DNA of 64,000 bases from Citricoccus sp. SGAir0253. GTDB lineage: Bacteria; Actinomycetota; Actinomycetes; Actinomycetales; Micrococcaceae. The stretch covers positions 1,984,001-2,048,000 of the forward strand of contig NZ_CP039424.1 of NCBI RefSeq assembly GCF_005877055.1, given 5' to 3'. The notes beneath the pieces are model-generated. The model was not told the DNA's origin. It ran no database searches and was given only the letters and a program-made list of their open reading frames with translations. This document shows, in pieces, positions 47,090 through 57,339 of this stretch (position 1 is its first letter; each line of letters opens with the position of its first letter). The position numbers and the translations under genes are program-made.

Positions 47090-48229
47090 TCAGCCGCCGA
47101 TCGCGTTCATGCCGCGGCCGGGCTGGACGAAGCCGGGGTCGTCGATCCCGTGGCCGGCCCGCTTCGCCGCGACGGACAGCTGCAGGGCGGCGGCCAGCTC
47201 CCCGTCCGTGGCCCCCTCGCGCAGGAGCGTGCGCAGGTCCGTCTCCTCGCGCGCGAACAGGCAGTTGCGCACCTGCCCGTCGGCGGTGAGGCGCAACCGG
47301 TCGCAGTCCCCGCAGAACGGGGCCGAGACCGAGGCGATGACGCCCACCGTGTGGGGCCCGCCGTCGACCGTGTACAGGGCCGCCGGGGAGGATCCGCGGC
47401 CGGGCACCGGGGCGAGCGTGAAGCGCTCGGCGAGCCGCTCGAGGATCTCCTCGCCCGAGACGAGGTGGTCCCGGCGCCACGTGTGCCCGGCGTCGAGCGG
47501 CATCTGCTCGATGAAGCGCATCTGGGCGTCCTGCGACACGGCGAAGGCGACGAGGTCGGCGAGCTCGTCGTCGTTCACCCCGCGCAGGGCCACCGCGTTG
47601 ATCTTCAGCGGGCGCAGCCCGGACGCGCGGACCGCCGCGATCCCGGCGAGCACGTCCGCGTGCCGGTCCCGGCGGGTCAGCTCCCGGAAGCGCTCCGGGC
47701 GCAGCGTGTCCAGGGAGACGTTGACGCGGGAGAGCCCGGCCGCCCGCAGGGCCGGCAGCCGCCGGTCCAGGGAGATGCCGTTGGTGGTCATCGCCACCGG
47801 AAGCCGACCGCCGCCGGGCAGCCCGATCGCGGCCAGCCGGGCGACGACGTCCTCGAGGTCCGGGCGCAGCAGCGGCTCGCCGCCCGTGAGCCGGACGCCG
47901 GTGATCCCGTGGTCCACGGCGATCCGCACGAGCCGCTCGATGTCCCCGGCCCGCAGCAGCTGGTCGCCCGGCGTGAACGGGCCGGCGTCCTCCGGCATGC
48001 AGTACGTGCAGCGCAGGGAGCACTTGTCCGTCAGGGACACCCGCAGGTCCCGGTGCACCCGGCCGAAGCCGTCGGCCATCACGGGCCCGGTGGCGACGGC
48101 GGCCAGCTCGGCCCGGGTGGGCAGGTGCCGGAGGGCCTCGGGACCGGCGGACGGGTCCGCCGCCGCGCCCGGGCGGGCGCCCGGCGCCGAGACCGTCCGC
48201 GTCGAGAGGGTCACCGGCACCCGGCTCAC
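47090..48229 (-). CDS. moaA: GTP 3',8-cyclase
   Basis: Radical SAM enzyme for the first step of molybdenum cofactor synthesis. The N-terminal cluster motif is CSLRCTYCMPE (about residue 70), the C-terminal cluster cysteines are in APFCGDCDRLR and NCLF, and the essential Gly-Gly ends the protein (GMNAIGG). TGGEPLLR and NVSLDTLRPERF are typical. The N-terminus is about 50 residues longer than in E. coli. GTG 48229 overlaps the moaE stop by 4 bp (GTGA), so moaB-moaE-moaA form a coupled minus-strand operon. Confidence 0.96.
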   Translation of the reverse strand: MSRVPVTLSTRTVSAPGARPGAAADPSAGPEALRHLPTRAELAAVATGPVMADGFGRVHRDLRVSLTDKCSLRCTYCMPEDAGPFTPGDQLLRAGDIERLVRIAVDHGITGVRLTGGEPLLRPDLEDVVARLAAIGLPGGGRLPVAMTTNGISLDRRLPALRAAGLSRVNVSLDTLRPERFRELTRRDRHADVLAGIAAVRASGLRPLKINAVALRGVNDDELADLVAFAVSQDAQMRFIEQMPLDAGHTWRRDHLVSGEEILERLAERFTLAPVPGRGSSPAALYTVDGGPHTVGVIASVSAPFCGDCDRLRLTADGQVRNCLFAREETDLRTLLREGATDGELAAALQLSVAAKRAGHGIDDPGFVQPGRGMNAIGG

Positions 48230-48762
48230 GGCAGGCCCACCCAGTGCGGCGCGCCGGAGGCGGTGTGCTGGCGCTTCCAGATCGGCACCTCGGCCTTGAT
48301 GTCCTCCACCACGGCCCGGCAGGCCTCGAAGGCCTCGGCGCGGTGGGCCGACGCCACGGACACCACGAGCGCCAGGTCGCCCACCGCGAGCGGCCCGGTC
48401 CGGTGCACCGCGGCCACGCGCACCTCCCCGTCCGGGTGGCCCGGGCCGCGGGCGTGCCGGGCGACGATCCCGTCCAGGATCGCCCCGGCGTCCGGGTGCG
48501 AGGTGTACTCCAGGGCGGTGACGGTGCCGTCCGCCTCCGGGTCGTGGTCCCGGACGACGCCGGTGAACGTCAGCGCGGCCCCGCACCGGGCGGTGACCAC
48601 GGACGCCTCGATCGCCGACGCGTCCAGCGGCGCCGCGGACACGCCCGCGAGCGCCGGCCCGGGGTCGGCGGCCGTGCCCCGGGCGGCGCCGGGGACCCGC
48701 TCGGCGGGGTCCGCGGTGACGTGCCCGCTGGCGTGCCCGGTCGCGTGCTCAGTGGCGGACAT
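48226..48762 (-). CDS. moaE: Molybdopterin synthase catalytic subunit
   Basis: MoaE converts cyclic pyranopterin monophosphate to molybdopterin with thiocarboxylated MoaD. The 178-residue protein has a non-conserved N-terminal extension of about 45 residues rich in His, Ala and Pro, then the core: GAALTFTGVVRDHDPEADG, LEYTSHPDAG, VHRTGPLAVGDLALVVSVAS, AHRAEAFEACR and the active-site Lys/Arg in VPIWKRQHTASG. ATG 48762 overlaps the end of moaB by 14 bp, and its stop overlaps moaA. Confidence 0.95.
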   Translation of the reverse strand: MSATEHATGHASGHVTADPAERVPGAARGTAADPGPALAGVSAAPLDASAIEASVVTARCGAALTFTGVVRDHDPEADGTVTALEYTSHPDAGAILDGIVARHARGPGHPDGEVRVAAVHRTGPLAVGDLALVVSVASAHRAEAFEACRAVVEDIKAEVPIWKRQHTASGAPHWVGLP

Positions 48763-49258
48763 GGTCTCCCCCGTCCAGCTGGTCCACGAGGTGGGGCAGC
48801 AGGGGGGCCAGCAGCGGCACGGCCTGCTCGGCCGCCCGGCGCGAGCCCGGCAGGGTCACCACGACGGCCGGGCGGTGCGCCTCCGGGTCCCCCGGGTCCA
48901 CCACCCCGGCGCGGCCCCGGGAGAGCACCGCCGTGGGGGTCTGCTCCTGCCCCGCGCGGCGCAGCATCTCCGGGATCCCCGGCAGGTCCCGGGTGATCAG
49001 CTGGTCCACCGCCTCGGGGGTGCGGTCCCGCGGGCCCACGCCGGTGCCCCCGAGGGTCAGCACCACGCGGGCGCCCAGCGCACAGGCCTCCGCGACGGCC
49101 GCGCTGACGGGACGGACGCCGTCGGGCACCACGGCGTGGCGCACGGGCCATCCGGGCAGCCCCTCGGCCACCAGCGCGCGCACCGCCGGGCCGGCGGTGT
49201 CCTCGGCGGTCCCGGCGGAGACCCGGTCGGAGACCGTGAGGATGTGAATGGTGTGCAT
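48749..49258 (-). CDS. moaB: MogA/MoaB family molybdenum cofactor protein
   Basis: Adenylylates molybdopterin so that MoeA can insert molybdate (MogA-type activity). The 169-residue protein has the MoCF-binding fold with [39 protein letters not shown] and the [16 protein letters not shown] end. ATG 49258 is followed by MHTIHILTV. It is first in the minus-strand arm moaB-moaE-moaA, 62 bp from the divergent OsmC-globin gene. Confidence 0.93.
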
Positions 49259-52387: not shown

Positions 52388-52393
52388 TACGTT
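52388..52393 (+). promoter_or_regulatory. -10 element of the amidohydrolase/DUF1704/ATP-grasp cassette
   Basis: TACGTT, then 6 nt (GGGATC), then the ATG at 52400. This indicates a separate, probably leaderless transcript for the cassette. Confidence 0.45.
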
Positions 52394-52399
52394 GGGATC

Positions 52400-53302
52400 A
52401 TGGACAACGACGTGGACACGGGCAAGGACACGGGCGAGGCCACCGATGGGCACGCGGGCGGGCCCAGCACCCCGGGACGGGGCACCGCCCAGGACGGCGG
52501 CGGGCAGATCCTCACGGTCGTGGGGCCGTGGGAGGAGCAGGTCGTGTTCACCGCCGTCCACGCCGGCCACGACCTGCGCCCCGAGGTCCGCGAGCTCATG
52601 GTGCTGGACGAGGCCACGCGGCTGCGCGAGGAGGACCCGCACTCCGACCGGATCGGCGCCCGGCTGGCCTCCGGGATGGTCATGCACCGCTCGCGCTTCG
52701 AGACGGACCTGAACCGGCCGCGCGAGCGCAGCGTCTACTCCTCGCCCGAGGACAGCTGGGGACTGCAGGTGTGGCGGGACGGGCAGCTGCCGGACGAGGT
52801 GGCCGCCGGCAGCCGCCAGGTCCACGACGCCTGGTACGAGGAGCTGGAGAAGCGCATCGCGCGCCTGGCGGCCCGCGGTCCCTTCGTCGTCTTCGACCTG
52901 CACACGTACAACCACCGACGGGACGGGCCCGACGCGCCGCCCGCGCCCCAGGAGGGCAACCCGGACGTCAACGTGGGCACGGGGACGCTGGACCGCGAGC
53001 CCTGGGCGCCCGTGGTGGACGCCTTCATGGAGGCGATGGCCGCCCCGGTCATCCCCGCCACCGGACAGCGCCTGGACGTGCGCGAGAACGTGCGGTTCTG
53101 GGGCCAGAACGAGGGCCGCTGGGTGCACCGCAACTTCCCGGACACCGCGTGCGTGCTCGCCCTGGAGTTCAAGAAGACCTTCATGGACGAGTGGACGGGC
53201 GAGGTGGACGAGGCCCACCTGGCCCAGCTCGCGGACGCCCTGGCCGGCACGGTGCCCGCGGTCACCGAGGCGCTGCGGCACGTGCGGGTGCCCTCGCCGT
53301 GA
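52400..53302 (+). CDS. N-formylglutamate amidohydrolase-like protein
   Basis: A metal-dependent amidohydrolase of the FGase family (carboxypeptidase-like fold). The 300-residue protein has an acidic, Gly-rich N-terminus (about 1-35), then VVFTAVHAGHDLRPE (expected metal ligand His), EEDPHSDRIGARLASG, SRFETDLNRPRERSVY and VFDLHTYNHRR (near residue 165). No histidine degradation genes are nearby, so the substrate is probably not N-formylglutamate but another N-acyl or isopeptide-type amide. Its TGA overlaps the GTG of the DUF1704 gene (GTGA), so the two are translated together. Confidence 0.87.
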   Translation: MDNDVDTGKDTGEATDGHAGGPSTPGRGTAQDGGGQILTVVGPWEEQVVFTAVHAGHDLRPEVRELMVLDEATRLREEDPHSDRIGARLASGMVMHRSRFETDLNRPRERSVYSSPEDSWGLQVWRDGQLPDEVAAGSRQVHDAWYEELEKRIARLAARGPFVVFDLHTYNHRRDGPDAPPAPQEGNPDVNVGTGTLDREPWAPVVDAFMEAMAAPVIPATGQRLDVRENVRFWGQNEGRWVHRNFPDTACVLALEFKKTFMDEWTGEVDEAHLAQLADALAGTVPAVTEALRHVRVPSP

Positions 53303-54465
53303 GCGCCACCGGCACGGGGCTGTCCACGCGGGACCGGGCGATCGACCACGAGCTCGCCCTGCTCTCCCGCACCTTCCGCTTCCTGCTGGACGTCACCCCC
53401 GTCAACGTCGAGGACGCGCGCCGGGAGTTCCTGTCCTCCGGCCGCCTGCCGGAGTTCCTCTACCGGGACCTGGAGGACGACCCCGAGGTGCTCAAGCAGG
53501 TCCTGGCGGACGTGCCCATCCACGAGGTGGACGACACCGTGCTGGGCACCCTGCTGCGCAACAAGCACCGCGAGATGTCCCTGCAGATCGACATGCTCTC
53601 CGTGCGGGACACCGAGGACTTCATGCCCCTGAGCATCGACCTCTACGGGGCGATCACCCCGGACCTGCGCCGCTCGGCGGAGTCCATCCTGGAGACCGTG
53701 ACGGTCACGGAGTCCACCTCGGCCGGGACCCTCGACGCGAAGCGGTTCCTCGACCGGGCGCACGAGGAGATCGAGTACTACCGCGAGCAGGACCCCGACA
53801 TCGACCTGCACGCCGAGGTGCGCCCGGACGTCTCCGGGGTGATGGTCGCCGGGGACACCCTGCTGATCGGGCAGGAGTCCAAGGTGCAGAAGGTCCGGGC
53901 CCACGCGCTGCTCCAGCACGAGGTGGGCACGCACCTGGTCACGCACGTCAACGGCGCCGCCCAGCCGGTCAAGGTGCTCGGCAGCGGCCTGGCCGGATAT
54001 GACGAGACGCAGGAGGGACTGGCGGTGCTGGCCGAGGTGGCGTGCGGCGGCCTCACCCGGTTCCGGCTGCGCCAGCTGGCCGCGCGCGTCCTGACCGTCC
54101 AGCGCATGGTCACCGGCGCCAGCTTCCAGGAGGCGCACGAGGCGCTCGTGGAGGACGGCGTCCCGGCCTCCTCCGCGTTCACCACCACCATGCGTGCCTT
54201 CCGCGCCGGCGGGCTGACGAAGGACGCCATCTACCTGCGCGGCATGCTGGACCTGCTCGCCCACCTGCGCCACGGCGGCACCCTGGACCTGCTGCTGCTG
54301 GGCAAGTTCTCCCTCGAGGACCTCCCCATGGTCCGCGACCTCCAGGAGCGCGGAGTGCTCGAGCCGCCCGTGCTGCGGCCGCGATGGCTCGAGGACGAGG
54401 ACGCGCCCGGACGGCTCGCGCGCGCGGCCGCCGTCGACGACCCCTGGGAGGACATCCTCCGGTGA
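53299..54465 (+). CDS. DUF1704 / QEGLA-motif metallopeptidase (MATCAP-like)
   Basis: A putative zinc carboxypeptidase of 388 residues. The zinc/catalytic motif is HEVGTH (about residue 206, in LLQHEVGTHLVT), and the family's QEGLA follows about 31 residues later (about 237-241), its Glu being the likely third ligand. The region is annotated in databases as flavohemoglobin expression-modulating QEGLA protein; eukaryotic relatives remove C-terminal tyrosine from tubulin. It probably trims a C-terminal residue from a peptide or conjugate. It is translationally coupled to the amidohydrolase and 97 bp upstream of the ATP-grasp gene. The N-terminal 140 residues are helical and family-typical. Confidence 0.88.
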   Translation: MSATGTGLSTRDRAIDHELALLSRTFRFLLDVTPVNVEDARREFLSSGRLPEFLYRDLEDDPEVLKQVLADVPIHEVDDTVLGTLLRNKHREMSLQIDMLSVRDTEDFMPLSIDLYGAITPDLRRSAESILETVTVTESTSAGTLDAKRFLDRAHEEIEYYREQDPDIDLHAEVRPDVSGVMVAGDTLLIGQESKVQKVRAHALLQHEVGTHLVTHVNGAAQPVKVLGSGLAGYDETQEGLAVLAEVACGGLTRFRLRQLAARVLTVQRMVTGASFQEAHEALVEDGVPASSAFTTTMRAFRAGGLTKDAIYLRGMLDLLAHLRHGGTLDLLLLGKFSLEDLPMVRDLQERGVLEPPVLRPRWLEDEDAPGRLARAAAVDDPWEDILR

Positions 54466-54562
54466 GCCGGCCCCGCGCCCCGGCGCCCCCTGCCGCCCCG
54501 CCGCCCCGGCCCCGCGCCGCCGGGGCCCCGCACGCCGCCCCACCGACCGAACGGAGCACCGC

Positions 54563-55606
54563 ATGAAGATCGGATTCGTCGTCAACGACGTCGCCACCGA
54601 GAAGGCCCACTACACCACCAATCGCCTGGCGCTGGCCGCCAGCCAGCGCGGCCACGAGGTCTGGCTGACCGGGGCGGGCGACTTCGCCTACGAGCCGGAC
54701 GGCACCCTGTCCGTCCTCGCCCGCGGTCCCGGCGACAAGGGATACCGCTCCCTCGAGCGGTTCCTGGACGACGTGCAGAAGCCGGAGACGGAGCGCCACG
54801 TCTCCGTCAACGACTTCGACGTGGTGATGCTGCGCAACGACCCGGCCGACGACGCCACCGAGCGCCCCTGGGCTCCCACGGCCGCCGTCGCCTTCGGCCA
54901 GCTGATCGCCAGCACCGGCGTGCTCGTGGTCAACGACCCGCACACGCTGGCCAACGCCCTCTCCAAGGCCTACTTCCAGCACTTCCCCGAGGCGGTCCGG
55001 CCACGGACCCTCATCACGCGGGACCAGGACATGATCTCGGGGTTCATCGACGAGATGGGCGGCCGGGCGGTGCTCAAGCCGCTGCAGGGCTCGGGCGGGT
55101 CCGGGGTGTTCCTCGTGGACCGCAAGGAGTCGCCCAACCTGTCCCAGATCGTGGAGGCGATCGCCCGCGACGGCTACGTGGTGGCCCAGGAGTACCTGCC
55201 CCAGGCCAAGGACGGGGACGTCCGCCTGTTCCTCATGAACGGCCGCCCGCTCGTGGTCGACGGCCAGGTGGCGGCCTTCCGCCGCCGCGCCAAGGCCGGG
55301 GAGGCCCGGTCCAACATGTCCGCCGGTGGCACCGCCGAACGCGTCCAGGTCACGGACGAGATGCTGGGCCTGGTCGAGGCCGTGCACCCGAAGCTCGCCG
55401 CCGACGGGATGTTCCTCGTGGGCCTGGACATCGTGGGCGACAAGCTGATGGAGATCAACGTCTTCTCCCCCGGCGGCCTGGGGTCGTGCCAGCAGCTGTA
55501 CGGGGTCGACTTCGCCCCGGCGGTCATCGCCGACCTCGAGCGGAAGCTGGAGGTCCGCGGCCACTACGGCGGCGCCCTGGAGAACGCCCGCCTGGCCACG
55601 ACCTGA
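54563..55606 (+). CDS. GshB-like ATP-grasp ligase
   Basis: An ATP-grasp amide ligase of 347 residues resembling prokaryotic glutathione synthetase. It shows the N-terminal MKIGFVVNDV fold, a substrate-loop segment VMLRNDPADD, ATP-binding Lys in AVLKPLQGSGGSGVFLVD, QEYLPQAKDGDVRLFLMNG and the metal site LMEINVFSPGG. Actinobacteria of this kind are expected to use mycothiol and no gshA is nearby, so true glutathione synthesis is unlikely; joining an amino acid to another acyl acceptor is the better guess. ATG 54563 has CGGAGC upstream. It is the last gene of the cassette, followed by a terminator. Confidence 0.88.
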   Translation: MKIGFVVNDVATEKAHYTTNRLALAASQRGHEVWLTGAGDFAYEPDGTLSVLARGPGDKGYRSLERFLDDVQKPETERHVSVNDFDVVMLRNDPADDATERPWAPTAAVAFGQLIASTGVLVVNDPHTLANALSKAYFQHFPEAVRPRTLITRDQDMISGFIDEMGGRAVLKPLQGSGGSGVFLVDRKESPNLSQIVEAIARDGYVVAQEYLPQAKDGDVRLFLMNGRPLVVDGQVAAFRRRAKAGEARSNMSAGGTAERVQVTDEMLGLVEAVHPKLAADGMFLVGLDIVGDKLMEINVFSPGGLGSCQQLYGVDFAPAVIADLERKLEVRGHYGGALENARLATT

Positions 55607-55619
55607 CGCCGGCCGGCCT

Positions 55620-55647
55620 CGCCGTCCCGGAGGGGTCCGGGACGGCG
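55620..55647. terminator. Terminator between the ATP-grasp gene and ettA
   Basis: 12-bp perfect arms CGCCGTCCCGGA/TCCGGGACGGCG with a GGGG loop, between convergent genes. Confidence 0.8.
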
Positions 55648-55656
55648 GGACCGCGG

Positions 55657-57339
<1,683 letters not shown>

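Follow-up and report, generated by a model that had tools for sequence, protein, structure and literature searches.

What can a bacterium do with an amide hydrolase, a metallocarboxypeptidase and an ATP-dependent ligase encoded side by side? The question is raised by a 64,000-nucleotide stretch of the Citricoccus sp. SGAir0253 genome (contig NZ_CP039424.1, positions 1,984,001 to 2,048,000 of the forward strand; hereafter the window), in which genes of the FGase (N-formylglutamate amidohydrolase), MATCAP (microtubule-associated tyrosine carboxypeptidase) and ATP-grasp families follow one another. Genes of these families recur together in the same order in other bacteria. We tentatively favour, at a little less than even probability, an explanation in which the unit encodes an ATP-dependent ligase that would add an amino acid to a C terminus, a carboxypeptidase that would oppose it and an accessory amidase, with a single peptide-like substrate for all three. 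The genes and the motifs discussed below are as follows.

52400–53302, + strand: gene for the FGase-family amidohydrolase (PF05013, Pfam E 8e-21); ATG start, 300 aa
53299–54465, + strand: gene for the MATCAP-family metallocarboxypeptidase homologue (PF08014, formerly DUF1704; 271.9 bits); GTG start, 388 aa
53917–53934, + strand: HEVGTH (HExxxH), predicted metal-binding and catalytic motif; residues 207–212, with H207, E208 and H212
54010–54024, + strand: QEGLA, residues 238–242; E239 corresponds to E316, a metal ligand in the human enzyme
54220–54243, + strand: KDAIYLRG, counterpart of KDQVYLDG in human MATCAP
54563–55606, + strand: gene for the ATP-grasp ligase, GshB-like PRK12458 subfamily (NF009110, 444.4 bits); 347 aa

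A recurrent three-gene unit

The cassette that a first-pass annotation had described at 52400–55606, with FGase-like, DUF1704 and GshB-like ATP-grasp members, is confirmed as real by Pfam and NCBIfam matches to all three proteins. The described spacing also holds: the first two genes overlap by the four bases GTGA (53299–53302) and 97 bp (54466–54562) separate the second from the third, with the start of the unit at 52400, a small correction to the earlier description.

A contig scan with a six-sequence MATCAP profile (the best 80 of 298 relatives, ranked by closeness and non-random) found the FGase gene in 79 loci and the ligase gene in 79, with all three on one strand in the order FGase–MATCAP–ligase in 78 of the 80. 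Going by their record titles, these loci belong to the Actinomycetota except for one Anaerolineae contig (Chloroflexota; L096). At one locus (L078) just 204 bases precede the MATCAP gene and the FGase gene may lie beyond the contig end; at another (L079) the FGase match is divided over two frames. A Tetrasphaera australiensis locus (L085:7206–8968) looks decayed: the FGase and MATCAP matches are each split between two frames, the MATCAP gene is frameshifted and its match ends at residue 330, and the ligase is gone. If the start codon closest to the preceding stop is taken, a four-base start/stop overlap is available between the FGase and MATCAP genes in 64 of 79 loci; such an overlap was found between the MATCAP and ligase genes in 56 of 79. 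Sequence distances co-vary among the members (r = 0.90 for MATCAP and ligase), as expected for any co-inherited genes.

The unit is also present on plasmids of the Rhizobiaceae and Phyllobacteriaceae, where it is annotated in several cases and was recovered by tblastn at 17 of the 17 loci examined (hand-picked from 127 plasmid records with MATCAP and 163 with ligase or GshB relatives), and it is annotated in one record labelled Roseateles (label unverified). On a Phyllobacterium zundukense plasmid (L105:9–3657), all three genes are broken into several frames.

Evenly drawn genomes give a fairer test of co-occurrence than the closeness-ranked scan. Among 296 genomes of a phylum sample, PF08014 was found in 13 and PRK12458 (E ≤ 1e-30) in six, three of them over the subfamily cut-off, and PRK12458 adjoined PF08014 in all six. 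Among 198 genomes of the order, PF08014 and above-cut-off PRK12458 occurred in the same six, adjacent each time, and four weaker PRK12458 matches (G605, G645, G715 and a second site in G716) lacked an adjoining MATCAP gene; seven of eight genomes of the window genus carried PF08014. A re-check for PRK12458 across 251 Chloroflexota genomes returned one, the starting genome (L096). Co-occurrence beyond close relatives, the point on which the first-pass annotation had let its proposal rest, is therefore found in the closeness-ranked loci, on rhizobial plasmids, on the Chloroflexota contig and in six of six order genomes.

The idea that the three genes travel as one unit holds for gene order in the scan but not for membership throughout: FGase adjoins the MATCAP–ligase pair in four of the six phylum-sample genomes, and in the other two (G039 and G052) the pair stands alone. 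Because these two actinobacterial versions lack FGase, FGase is accessory and the core is the MATCAP–ligase pair. Spread as it is over Actinomycetota, plasmids of rhizobia and a single Chloroflexota contig, the unit is either ancient or mobile, and its distribution is patchy.

Family relationships of the three proteins

The middle protein lies far above the curated PF08014 cut-off of 27 bits, and Pfam now names this family, once DUF1704, MATCAP; the 'carboxypeptidase-like trimmer' proposed earlier from HEVGTH and QEGLA is in this respect upheld. Human KIAA0895L structures were matched by the single window sequence at E 2.8e-6, and a 47-sequence profile matched the KIAA0895L structure 7z5g at E 4.5e-13, covering positions 115–383 of 391; the longer Sinorhizobium meliloti member matched no human KIAA0895L structure at E up to 1. 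Conversely, the window protein falls below the cut-off of the QEGLA family TIGR02421 (304 bits vs 338.65), which the S. meliloti member exceeds (353.1). In the window protein, H207, E208 and H212 align with human H280, E281 (Q in structure 7z6s) and H285. Across the 47 aligned sequences, HEVGTH is invariant except for V209, which is at least 90% conserved; no QEGLA position is less than 90% conserved; and K308, D309, Y312, L313 and G315 of the KDxxYLxG motif are invariant. The window protein thus has in common with human MATCAP/TMCP (KIAA0895L and KIAA0895) the PF08014 domain, HExxxH, the Glu of (Q/E)EGLA and KDxxYLxG; it differs in being bacterial and in sharing an operon with an ATP-grasp ligase and an FGase. 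According to the available text of PMC10499314, both human enzymes take off C-terminal Tyr, Glu and polyglutamate, E281A and E316A cut the activity of human MATCAP strongly in cells, and E281A is inactive in vitro.

A long MATCAP form with an N-terminal domain of about 250 aa (carrying the GGRLHIDRPLPFL motif) occurs in rhizobia, on the one Chloroflexota contig and in some Actinomycetota (L097:5257–6080, L096:1003–1830, L109 and L110); the window form is without this domain. The domain gave no Pfam match in L097 or L096, and the notion that it is a degenerate FGase was unsupported (probability 0.4%).

The FGase-family protein keeps seven invariant residues across 49 aligned sequences (H54, H57, D166, H168, N171, N191 and E256), and a sequence-based search of the PDB found no relative of it. 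Although it shares PF05013 with HutG, the N-formylglutamate deformylase, it scores only 26.8 bits against the HutG equivalog TIGR02017, for which the cut-off is 278.75, and it is located in a MATCAP operon; a role in histidine degradation is rejected on that score. Tessaracoccus antarcticus carries two tandem FGase copies ahead of MATCAP (L052:6345–7992).

The ligase exceeds the NF009110/PRK12458 cut-off of 408 bits and falls short of both GshB equivalogs (TIGR01380, 196.9 bits vs 299.05; NF003573, 210 vs 272). It has both GshB domains, including GSH-S_N, and matches Escherichia coli GshB (1gsa) at E 1.5e-34; it also matches RimK entries in Pfam and the PDB. No TTL (tubulin tyrosine ligase) family appeared among its Pfam and NCBIfam matches (E up to 0.01) or its PDB matches, and TTL forms an ATP-grasp family distinct from that of the cassette ligase. 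In a tree of 31 ligases, 26 members of the PRK12458 clade stood apart from five canonical GshB sequences (support 100/99; L139 and L108 are long branches). Ten catalytic or ligand columns of GshB are nevertheless identical in all 31 sequences (R91, K135, K172, R221, R241, R249, N251, D289, E297 and N299), and the specificity positions that separate canonical GshB from the clade (only L112G, G237A and V290I) are uninformative. Because the clade is separate yet the ten columns are the same, the natural reading of these sequences is that the enzyme carries out a reaction akin to that of GshB on a different substrate. The ligase thus resembles E. coli GshB in domains and tested columns, and differs from it in its equivalog scores, its separate clade and its MATCAP partner.

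Possible reactions and substrates

In the mechanism that we favour, the ATP-grasp ligase would form an acyl phosphate on a C-terminal carboxylate and couple an amino acid to it, as GshB does with gamma-Glu-Cys. The MATCAP-family enzyme would take off the C-terminal residue, most likely as the opposite or a proof-reading step, and the FGase-family enzyme would open a second amide, probably of N-acyl or glutamate type, allowing full recycling of the product. The substrate would probably be a small glutamyl or N-acyl peptide other than glutathione, and in rhizobia it may be made under the general stress response. We infer that the opposing reactions meet on one substrate, together with their direction and reversibility, the small size of the peptide and the role in stress.

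The suggestion of a stress role comes from the rhizobial plasmids. A promoter-like sequence of the EcfG/RpoE2 type (GGAAC-N16/17-nGTT) is found no more than 450 bp upstream of FGase at seven of the 17 loci, in the CGTT form at five, compared with a mean of 0.2 and a maximum of two loci in 500 mononucleotide shuffles; a number of the loci are closely related, so the matches are not independent. In S. meliloti, a 70-aa open reading frame separates the match from FGase. The rhizobial unit has as neighbours DUF2934, glycogen genes, BA14K, Ku and a Na+/H+ antiporter, surroundings that look like stress islands as an impression rather than a count. The GGAAC-N16/17-nGTT form agrees with RpoE2 promoters listed in the accessible part of PMC6180224, and the rhizobial cassette is not named among the RpoE2 targets in the accessible parts of PMC3616915 and PMC6180224.

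Several points weigh against this explanation. Two opposing enzymes expressed together would run a futile cycle unless they were regulated, and the substrates of the human MATCAP enzymes are protein tails rather than small peptides. An EcfG/RpoE2-type match is absent from ten of the 17 rhizobial loci, and two of the seven loci that have one share an identical site. MATCAP occurs without the ligase in seven of the 13 PF08014 genomes of the phylum sample, a Pseudoalteromonas MATCAP has neither FGase nor ligase nearby, and two Ensifer plasmids carry the ligase with no MATCAP beside it; because each occurs without the other, neither MATCAP nor the ligase strictly needs its partner. These Ensifer ligases of the PRK12458 clade (L118:4501–5991 and L119:4206–5547) are found near a small membrane-like protein of 82 aa; in both L118 and L119 an EcfG-type promoter match precedes the 82-aa gene, and in L118 there is also one upstream of the ligase.

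Somewhat unlikely, in our estimate, is reversible protein tagging, in which the ligase would add an amino acid to a protein C terminus or side chain and MATCAP would remove it, a bacterial counterpart of tubulin tyrosination. PF08014 is the family of tubulin tail carboxypeptidases, the ligase matches RimK, and the available text of PMC4431377 describes RimK and TTL as ATP-grasp enzymes that tag proteins. The tubulin tyrosine ligase/detyrosinase cycle likewise pairs an ATP-grasp ligase with a MATCAP-family carboxypeptidase; here, in contrast, the genes are physically linked and the ligase matches no TTL family. Tagging also fits poorly with the full GshB architecture of the ligase, GSH-S_N domain and tested columns included, and it leaves FGase unexplained. 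Moreover, a survey of 956 crudely called open reading frames of at least 40 aa around 82 loci (the 80 scan loci and two plasmid loci) revealed no gene for a protein substrate travelling with the unit, because no neighbour family exceeds 22 of the 82 loci. Nor was a conserved fourth gene seen: of the 25 largest groups listed, the largest (22 loci) is mostly from Nocardioides in the rows listed, followed by a UvrA-like group (named by eye; 15 loci in several genera, on either side and strand) and a SIR2-like group (14 loci).

We consider it quite unlikely that the unit is instead a biosynthetic line, with a precursor peptide trimmed by FGase and MATCAP and then capped by the ligase to yield a new natural peptide or an osmolyte. 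The fixed gene order, the overlapping starts and stops, and the stress-type promoter matches and stress-looking neighbours of the rhizobial units are what such a line might present; however, any family of precursors, transporters or regulators is confined to at most 22 of the 82 neighbourhoods, and the MATCAP–ligase pair exists without FGase. The NAGGN osmolyte operon (asnO–ngg plus a peptidase) also combines a small stress-linked peptide, an ATP-grasp enzyme and a peptidase gene, with enzyme families that differ from those of the cassette. Beside the unit of one actinobacterium (L109:9315–12426) stand a GH65-family gene and a HAD hydrolase, which are sugar- or stress-type neighbours.

The database name 'glutathione synthetase' implies a further alternative, synthesis and turnover of glutathione or another gamma-Glu-Cys tripeptide. 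Besides the subfamily name and the ten shared columns, the gene content of the window genome speaks for it: there are three PF04107 (GCS2) genes, and the cassette ligase is the sole PF02955 ligase, on which grounds gamma-Glu-Cys, and even glutathione, could be made. The first-pass annotation had called glutathione unexpected here, a view that these GCS2 genes weaken. Physiology in S. meliloti is more telling. By high-performance liquid chromatography, a gshB (SMc00419) mutant of S. meliloti 2011 contained no glutathione, according to the available text of PMC7063052, and pSymB of this strain carries FGase, MATCAP and ligase genes 99–100% identical to those annotated in strain RCAM1750. The cassette ligase thus apparently did not supply glutathione in that mutant, in which the unit may, however, have been unexpressed. 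In S. meliloti Ak57, canonical gshB is on CP090106.1 and the cassette ligase on CP090105.1, presumably of one strain; CP090106.1 (L136), a 3.7-Mb record labelled 'plasmid pSymB' that carries the canonical gshB, is probably a mislabelled chromosome. The window genome has no PF04262 and a mycothiol ligase MshC over the cut-off, and among six cassette genomes at least one PF04107 gene was found in five, PF04262 in none and MshC above the cut-off in five; an Ornithinimicrobium genome (L047; completeness not stated) carries the cassette with no match to PF04107 or PF04262. Of the four explanations, we regard glutathione synthesis and turnover as the least probable.

Expression signals and broader meaning

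Two candidate signals flank the unit in the window.

52388–52393, + strand: -10-like TACGTT, ending 6 nt before the first ATG; leaderless-type promoter candidate
55618–55649, + strand: 14-bp GC-rich hairpin between the unit and the convergent EttA gene; possible terminator, no T-run

The private -10 described earlier corresponds to the TACGTT box. A TANNNT sequence ending 6–7 nt before the ATG is present in the five closest scan loci (L017–L021; Citricoccus and Micrococcus), but only eight of 79 loci have one ending 4–10 nt before some in-frame start (background 0.0005 per position); because of this distribution, a leaderless promoter is likely for the FGase–MATCAP–ligase unit in the Citricoccus/Micrococcus clade only. 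A sigma-70 scan found no promoter. At the proposed terminator, the fold of 55603–55665 is more stable than expected (z −2.5; four of 200 shuffles equally stable), but the hairpin has no T-run and a scan for T-run terminators found none. On the 5′ side, the unit is preceded by an acyl-CoA thioesterase II-like gene, and farther off, at 47090–49258 on the − strand, are open reading frames that by eye resemble the molybdenum-cofactor genes MoaA, MoaE and MogA. A known defence system was ruled out, PADLOC giving no match for the four proteins submitted.

DUF1704 had no explanation before the discovery that its human members are tubulin carboxypeptidases. Literature searches, limited to the accessible parts of the sources, returned no role for bacterial MATCAP members and no account of the unit. 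A 2009 survey of ATP-grasp amidoligase neighbourhoods by Iyer et al. reportedly covers related ground and may already list it, and we do not claim a first description. The names 'glutathione synthetase', 'N-formylglutamate amidohydrolase' and 'flavohemoglobin expression-modulating' may be misleading for members of the unit. Judged from their sequences, side-by-side enzymes in several unrelated bacterial groups seem equipped to add amino acids to the end of a peptide and to take them off again. A broader proposal, which we think unlikely, is that this is a self-contained bacterial cycle of C-terminal amino-acid addition and removal, acting on a protein tail or a signal-like peptide, and that the enzyme acting on tubulin tails in animals and ciliates is derived from the 'eraser' in an older writer/eraser pair of bacteria. 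In any case, the recurrent operon gives rise to a testable hypothesis: the bacterial MATCAP enzyme should act on the product of the neighbouring ligase.

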